A DNA stretch of 33,256 bases from Anaerofustis stercorihominis (GTDB lineage Bacteria > Bacillota > Clostridia > Eubacteriales > Anaerofustaceae). Below, in pieces: positions 19,603 to 33,256 of the stretch. The position numbers and the translations under genes are program-made. How positions within the stretch are numbered: position 1 is the first letter of the stretch; each line of letters begins with the position of its first letter. The notes beneath the pieces are model-generated. The model did not search any database and was not told where the DNA came from. It saw only the letters and a list, made by a program, of their open reading frames with translations. The stretch spans positions 1-33,256 of the forward strand of contig SVCP01000015.1 in the NCBI GenBank assembly GCA_015058295.1, in the 5' to 3' direction.

Positions 19603-19890
19603 CTCTGATTCCTATCGAAAGCACCTTACGGCACTTTATCGTTCCATAAAGCTGTTTCTCCTTTATCGCGGAAATCCCATTTCCGCGAGTATGGGAAAGT
19701 AACTGTCTTTATGCCATATATTCTTGTTTATATCTTCTTGTGTCTGAAAAAGTACTAATTCCCACCCGCCCACCCTTTTCTTGCAGGCCTGCGGCCTGCA
19801 CCGCGCCTGCGGTGCTGAGCCTGCTTCGCAGACTTACGTAGAGCAATAACAGTCTGTGCCGCATTTTCTTGCTTACATAGTGAAAATATT
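19603..19890. repeat. Large dispersed repeat, copy 1, with G-quadruplex motif and GC-rich hairpins
   Basis: 19603-19784 is nearly identical by eye to 33025-33207. It contains a perfect hairpin CGCGGAAAT-CCC-ATTTCCGCG, a 71-nt subunit from GGGAAAGTAAC (19693) to AATTCCC (19763), and a C-run CCCACCCGCCCACCC (19761-19775) whose complement is a canonical four-run G-quadruplex motif. Then come GC-rich hairpins: GCAGGCC-TGC-GGCCTGC (19783-19799), GCACCGC-GCCT-GCGGTGC (19798-19815) and CTGC-TTC-GCAG (19821-19831). From about 19841 a degenerate second subunit begins (AATAACAGTCTGTGCC). No ORF is plausible. Confidence 0.8.
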
Positions 19891-20045: not shown

Positions 20046-20190
20046 AAGTCCCCCTTGTGTAAAGGGGGAAGCAAAATCATCGGATTTTGCAGGGGGATTG
20101 GCTATATGCTGATGTATTGAGTTTATATTATTACGCACAATTCCCTCCCTGAAAGCTTACGCTTTATTCCCCCCTTTGCACAAGGGAGGA
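20046..20190. repeat. Composite II: convergent pair of hairpin repeats
   Basis: Plus unit 20046-20100: CCCCC, loop, GGGGG; GCAAAATC/GATTTTGC; GGGGGATTG. Minus unit 20137-20190: same design, with middle stem AAAGC/GCTTT. The left outer hairpin is preceded by AAAAA, so it reads as a terminator leaving the element on the minus strand. A further piece of the G-rich end (ACACAAGGGAGGGATTTTT) lies at 20221-20239. Confidence 0.75.
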
Positions 20191-23122: not shown

Positions 23123-23320
23123 AAGTCCCCCTTGTGTAAAGGGGGAAGCAAAATCAGGGATTTTGCAAGGGGGATTGTTTGTATATGCAGAACCATATGG
23201 AAATCATATGTTGTGATTCGTATGTACCCCCCCTCTTACTGTCGTACTGCTTTTCCTTCACGATCCCTCCCTGAAAATCTTACGATTTTCTTTCCCTCCC
23301 TTTTACGCAAGGGAGGGCTT
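23123..23320. repeat. Composite III: convergent pair of hairpin repeats
   Basis: Plus unit 23123-23177: CCCCC/GGGGG, GCAAAATC/GATTTTGC, then GGGGGATTG; almost identical to the plus unit at 20046. Minus unit 23261-23320: CCCTCCC/GGGAGGG outer hairpin followed by CTTTTTT, with middle stem GAAAATC/GATTTTC. The roughly 80-nt interior is unrelated to composite II. Confidence 0.78.
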
Positions 23321-32907: not shown

Positions 32908-32933
32908 GTATTGTGCAGGCAGTCGGAGAGTCC

Positions 32934-33256
32934 GGGAAAGTGACTGCCGTTATGCCGTATATTCTTGTTAATTTCTTCTTTTGTTTAAGAAAGTACTAAT
33001 TCCCACCCACCCGCGTCGAAACATCTCTGATTTCTCTCGAAAGCACCTCACGGCACTTTCTCCTTCCATAAAGCTGTTTCTCCTTCATCGCGGAAATGGG
33101 ATTTCCGCGAGTATGGGAAAGTAATAACAGTCTGTGCCGTATATTCTTGTTTATATCTTCTTGTGCTTAAAAAAGTACTAATTCCCACCCGCCCACCCTT
33201 TTCTTGCGACGCTGCGCGTCGCGCTGCCGCCTGCGGCGGGCTTTGGAAAGTAATAA
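32934..33256. repeat. Large dispersed repeat array, copy 2, running off the right edge
   Basis: Three starts of the same subunit: 32934-33004, 33115-33186, and the beginning of another at 33246 (GGAAAGTAATAA). 33025-33207 repeats 19603-19784 almost exactly. The hairpin CGCGGAAAT-GGG-ATTTCCGCG (33089-33109) has the loop inverted relative to copy 1. CCCACCCGCCCACCC recurs at 33184-33198; a three-run version is at 33002-33012. GC hairpins GCGACGC-TGC-GCGTCGC (33206-33222) and CCGCC-TGC-GGCGG follow. No plausible ORF. Confidence 0.8.

Follow-up and report, generated by a model that had tools for sequence, protein, structure and literature searches.

Insertion sequences of the IS200/IS605 type carry hairpins beside their Y1 transposase gene, use single-stranded DNA as substrate and leave no target duplication. 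Among smaller dispersed elements, REPINs already combine a 'clover' configuration with compensatory changes in variable hairpin-forming spacers (PMC3116915). The 16-mer of the Neisseria pilE locus, GGGTGGGTTGGGTGGG, folds in vitro as a parallel G-quadruplex (G4; PMC10094033). In the DNA studied here the two kinds of structure meet: a G4 motif terminates an array of hairpins, and most of the closely related elements have no G4, a finding that goes beyond the preliminary description of this DNA.

The window, the whole 33,256-nucleotide stretch that was analysed, is a single contig from a draft assembly of Anaerofustis stercorihominis (1.83 Mb, labelled G000). Its pyrG has its nearest named counterparts in the Eubacteriaceae MAG RGIG6509 from sheep rectum (85%) and in Anaerofustis stercorihominis (70%); a search with the methyltransferase gave no match. 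It contains CCCACCCGCCCACCC twice as an exact match (Table 1), and dinucleotide shuffles give an expected chance count of none, even with two mismatches allowed. The minus strand, GGGTGGGCGGGTGGG, has the four G3 runs and short loops of a canonical G4. Both sites lie inside a dispersed repeat of approximately 90 bp (D1), a third copy of which carries only the three-run form CCCACCCACCC. The preliminary description had reported two motifs within a dispersed repeat as well as the three-run form, and both observations hold, the former as exact matches far above chance. A census of G000 by pattern and model searches yielded 13 exact GGGNGGGNGGGNGGG sites, at least three further copies with GGGTGGGTTGGGTGGG, in which the middle loop is two bases, and a total of 39 stretches similar to the window repeat.

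Conservation was assessed on 18 copies of one subfamily, collected via the neighbouring GCCGCAGGC terminus without use of the G4, and any cell differing from the column majority was scored as a substitution. The G-runs had changed in 6.2% of cells, compared with 36% in the loops, 13% in the linker and 17% in the 3' flank (Fisher p of 1e-7, 0.03 and 6e-5, respectively, values that are indicative only as the copies are related to each other). The G-run figure is conservative, since the count takes in two tail-less elements and one mis-slid alignment, which inflate the number of G-run changes. The proposal that the G-runs are better kept than loops, linker and 3' flank is thus borne out for this subfamily.

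Table 1. Features of the G4-bearing repeat copies in the window (positions in the window)
Feature	Position	Strand	Remark
G-quadruplex motif GGGTGGGCGGGTGGG, copy 1, at the 3' end of the hairpin array	19761..19775	-	exact match, none by chance
Palindrome GCAGGCCgcaGGCCTGC adjoining the G4, copy 1	19783..19799	-	includes the conserved 9-mer GCCGCAGGC at 19787-19795 (-)
Hairpin CAGCACCGCaggcGCGGTGCAG, copy 1	19796..19817	-	4-nt overlap with the neighbouring palindrome GCAGGCCgcaGGCCTGC
Hairpin AGTCTGCgaaGCAGGCT, copy 1	19818..19834	-	
Dispersed repeat module with G4 and conserved 3' flank, copy 1	19690..19785	-	
G-quadruplex motif, copy 2	33184..33198	-	no chance match in shuffles
Hairpin GCGACGCgcaGCGTCGC, copy 2	33206..33222	-	7 copies in G000, an intact four-run G4 after each (7/7)
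Palindrome CCGCCgcaGGCGG with GCCGCAGGC terminus at 33229-33237	33227..33239	-	outer array end, copy 2
Dispersed repeat module, copy 2	33112..33207	-	89% identical to copy 1
Three-run form; switch to another module (GCGTCGAAAC...), no hairpin array	33002..33012	-	
Dispersed repeat module, copy 3, without hairpin array	32934..33012 (as D1 copy 32923-33012)	-	86% identical to copy 1

The element in the window lacks its right inverted end, with the G4 in that place, and the window copies have been multiplied within a larger composite repeat. The modules of this composite repeat change partners at C-runs (window 33002-33012; C41:15392 and C71:16219 in G000; loci L028 and L030), and the C/G-run serves as a junction between modules, as the flanking repeat switches exactly there. 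A search with the copy 1 module gave 10 matches in its own genome and, at E<=0.001, no match among 100 relatives. Near the G4 repeat lies a further dispersed palindromic repeat, TCCCCCTTGTGTAAAGGGGGA with a GATTTT hairpin (window 20046-20107, 23123-23184 and 1477-1549), and palindromes similar to it stand in for the G-tail in some elements of G001, another species of the same genus.

The GCCGCAGGC terminus occurs 94 times in G000, compared with 4 occurrences of the reversed pattern, and 22 inverted pairs lie within 110 bp. These pairs delimit 22 symmetric elements of 82-109 nt arranged as GCCGCAGGC, three hairpins and GCCTGCGGC, and bounded by terminal inverted repeats of the kind that define MITEs; G-rich inverted termini are likewise found in G001. 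Folding with DNA parameters gives a closed stem with three hairpins for all 22, comprising 868 Watson-Crick and only 6 G-T pairs (6/874). Distinct arms make up 51 of 62, and complementarity is 0.998 within an arm's own hairpin compared with 0.376 crosswise; as arms were recognised by complementarity, the share of paired positions is to some extent a given, and what is informative beyond pairing is the constant layout, the arm diversity and the rarity of G-T pairs. In G001, the array pairs comprise 694 Watson-Crick, 1 G-T and 15 other (1/710 G-T), and the alignment contains two-sided changes in 34 cells versus a one-sided change in 1. The triloops are of the GNA/TNC type in 35 of 48 cases in G001 and 22 of 47 in G000, where 12.5% would be expected; GNA loops with G-C closing pairs form exceptionally stable DNA mini-hairpins (PMC4686876). 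Two near-identical G000 copies (L181) differ by the inversion of one hairpin loop, TGC versus GCA. That the arms vary yet stay self-complementary suggests that the DNA fold, not the sequence, is preserved and perhaps spread, and a cloverleaf family with such hypervariable complementary arms is more unusual than the G4 itself. The combination of conserved ends, a variable hairpin interior and compensatory change is that used to recognise REPINs; the REP/REPIN tag GTAG/CGTC, on the other hand, starts none of the 44 listed ends, which mostly read GGGG or GCCCC.

A full G4 is present at only 2 of the 44 ends of the symmetric elements. G accounts for 41% of their first ten outer bases, and the G4 appears to be the end point of a gradation in G-rich tails. 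Given its presence at 2 of 44 ends, the G4 is an optional tail that the wider family does not need; in addition, the number of G3 runs is below four in approximately a third of the G001 copies. The reading put forward in the preliminary description therefore stands as regards a dispersed repeat whose G-runs are kept as loops and flanks vary, and is not supported as regards a G4 that the element requires. T-tracts, read as those of terminators, run into 11 of the 22 symmetric elements, at 13 ends compared with 2 in the reverse sense.

Among the 100 relatives, the motif and the hairpins occur together only in G001 (33 motifs) and in G007 (5 motifs), which represents one other genus of the family; the motif search in relatives was repeated order-wide. 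G4 matches in G004, G023, G045, G068 and G089 were rejected, as the upstream sequence lacks comparable hairpin arrays and several are of low complexity or apparently coding. Most copies have the same order on the G-strand, at least two perfect hairpins with mostly 3-nt loops followed by the G4, and this plan is common to G000, G001 and G007. Even so, no sequence similarity to the window repeat was detectable in the G001 and G007 repeats. Complete G001 elements are typically ~180-195 bp long, although shorter forms exist, and run from a C-rich end through three hairpins, a GC-rich centre and three further hairpins to a G-rich end; one double cloverleaf with a G-rich tail, resembling these elements, is present in G000. 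A search of G001 with a model of two of its own hairpins, from which the G4 was left out, gave 82 matches. Among the best 28 of these 82, four or more runs of G3 or longer come next in about two thirds of cases, and G5-A/T-GG-T-GGG-C-GGG or similar in most others; two are followed by another repeat, and a few end at contig ends. The elements also appear to limit assembly, since a contig ends within ~150 bp of about half of the G4 sites in G001.

A covariance model of eight trimmed cloverleaves, with both-strand matches of one element counted separately, gave 34 matches in G000, 15 in G001, which are halves of the double elements, and 1 in G007, with no match in the other ten genomes of the family. 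In a class-wide search, run with stricter filters under which weak matches can be lost, only G000 and G001 matched among 391 genomes. Among the genomes searched, the cloverleaf elements are thus confined to three genomes of one family. The two G007 elements, one found by the covariance match and the second via its terminus, carry termini of another sequence than the model elements, again with three arms behind an inverted terminus. A large three-arm element in G007 (L369, C24:52276-52419) has the terminal inverted repeat GGGGCGCGCAAGCG and is bordered by apparent CAACTA direct repeats, the only candidate target duplication seen, which as a single case was not counted.

We favour an explanation to which we give an even chance of being correct: that a non-autonomous, palindromic, REPIN/MITE-like dispersed DNA element, the fold of which acts as DNA and is copied or transposed, has the G4 as its G-rich end. 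In the full form, a G-rich/C-rich inverted terminus closes three perfect hairpins into a DNA cloverleaf of 82-109 nt, with two such sets in tandem in G001. The fold would act at the DNA level, either in single strands exposed at forks or as a cruciform, and the folded strand or cruciform may be the substrate of copying or transposition, as has been proposed for REPINs (PMC3116915). The fold appears to be preserved as DNA, and the copies resemble a family that has spread. Copying or transposition of the folded strand or cruciform is the likeliest step, and we infer that the elements are mobile, possibly through an IS200/IS605-type single-strand transposase. The terminal G-runs may grow or be retained by virtue of holding the strand open or marking the end; where they reach four, a very stable parallel G4 could form, making it a dispensable end feature that would help to keep or mark the strand. 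The window unit would then have lost its right inverted end, kept the G4 there and been multiplied in the larger composite repeat. The lack of a G4 in most symmetric elements counts against this explanation.

Direct repeats in the flanks of the 22 symmetric elements are no longer than those in cross pairs, and a target-site duplication was thus not found for these. This would also be expected under an IS200/IS605-like mechanism, if such a mechanism applies. Counting against mobility, no empty site was seen, and no intact dedicated transposase was found for the elements. Fragments of an IS200-like Y1 transposase with an intact HVH motif are present at the ends of two G000 contigs (C62 and C32; L122:1-620 and L123:2050-2546), and several perfect hairpins with 2-3-nt loops flank the IS200-like gene immediately up- and downstream. 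A RAYT as direct partner was rejected: in G001, the sole Y1 protein carries PDRANFLI where HUH has been lost, no three-run G motif occurs within the 8 kb around its gene, and HUH-less relatives occur in repeat-free genomes. This HUH-less Y1-type protein is single-copy and kept across several genera of the family (L115:1090-1995, L121:4516-4828; also L124 and L125), its gene adjoins an mcsA-like gene in G001, and it looks domesticated. Alternatively, the arrays may be passive palindromes with no element-specific mobility, such that template switching between arms in replication keeps the hairpins, gene conversion and slippage keep the G-runs and segmental duplication spreads the copies. The strict Watson-Crick arms and the flipped triloops of L181 do fit palindrome correction, as the multiplication of the window copies with the composite repeat and the missing target duplication fit a passive spread. 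We nevertheless consider it unlikely, since it does not by itself explain the constant three-arm layout, the conserved 9-bp terminus in 22 scattered elements or the placement of the T-tracts.

The G4-ended elements are intergenic, located mostly at gene 3' ends and rarely between divergent genes, and convergent gene pairs around elements are common in G000. Such placement, together with a stable predicted RNA fold with a G4, would suit an element acting at the RNA level, with the arrays as 3'-UTR stabilisers or terminators resembling transcribed REPs and the G4 acting in the mRNA. A selected RNA is, however, expected to show many G-U intermediates, and the almost complete lack of G-T pairs in variable, complementary and covarying arms indicates DNA rather than RNA. 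Moreover, elements in tandem gene pairs show no strand preference (10 versus 10 in G001), a search of Rfam 15 with the window and eight loci gave 0 matches at gathering score, and elements are often placed after an existing T-tract, so that we regard an RNA-level role as improbable. It is slightly less probable still that selection acts on the function of the G4 itself, as a site of recombination or of replication control comparable to the pilE G4, with the hairpins secondary. The G-runs are indeed better conserved than the loops, the pilE 16-mer (PMC10094033) recurs in G000 and repeat modules switch at C-runs, but the G4 is missing at 42 of the 44 symmetric ends and incomplete in the G001 copies described above, nor did a linked variable gene system come to light in passing.

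Comparison of gene neighbourhoods shows that the surroundings mostly differ between G000 and G001, with only 5 of the 39 G000 element loci sharing even a homologous neighbour gene with a G001 element locus. At two loci, one upstream of MetRS and one behind the gene for an AAA ATPase, an element is present in both species, suggesting that some element positions may be old. The G4 hairpin elements upstream of MetRS (L043:1380-1760 and L085:1-180) are in opposite orientation and have no aligned element sequence.

If the elements are indeed mobile, miniature DNA of the REPIN kind would come to include a multi-arm cloverleaf with G4 ends, found in a lineage of Clostridia without a recognisable RAYT. 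The elements would also provide dozens of natural, sequence-unrelated but fold-identical DNA structures with which to study the copying, tolerance and processing of palindromes and G-quadruplexes. A broader proposal, which we offer only tentatively and think doubtful, is that these are bacterial DNA elements in which the fold is the heritable unit, the arms being rewritten by palindrome-preserving copying and the G-tails extended to G4s.

Compared with known systems, the elements resemble REPINs and REPs with RAYTs (PMC3116915, PMC3733652), being short, palindromic and intergenic, with conserved ends, a variable hairpin-forming interior and compensatory changes; REPINs are, in addition, thought to move as single-stranded DNA. 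In contrast to REPINs, the elements described here lack the GTAG/CGTC tag and a catalytic RAYT was not found, and they have three or more separate, hypervariable arms closed by a 9-bp terminus as well as G-rich or G4 tails. The ends of IS200/IS605 elements are a candidate parallel, with rows of triloop hairpins beside the IS200-like copy in G000. Mitochondrial double-hairpin, RHE and palindromic elements (PMC2800124, PMC2670323) are similarly selfish-looking hairpin arrays spreading in intergenic DNA. Stems are conserved and loops variable in the sponge RHEs, whereas in our elements the stems vary and complementarity is kept, and the mitochondrial elements are not known to carry a G4. The GGGAATC and GGGGA(C/T)T repeats of Xanthomonas and Nostoc (PMC4692102) are likewise dispersed, intergenic G4-forming sequences, often near gene ends, with a bias to four G-runs and inverted G4 pairs, but they are tandem heptamers without hairpin arrays, whereas here G4s with single-nucleotide loops cap palindromic elements. 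Finally, the Neisseria pilE G4 (PMC10094033), a parallel G4, is identical to the 16-mer in at least three G000 copies; it is a single regulatory site for antigenic variation, whereas the G4 described here belongs to a dispersed repeat with hairpins.
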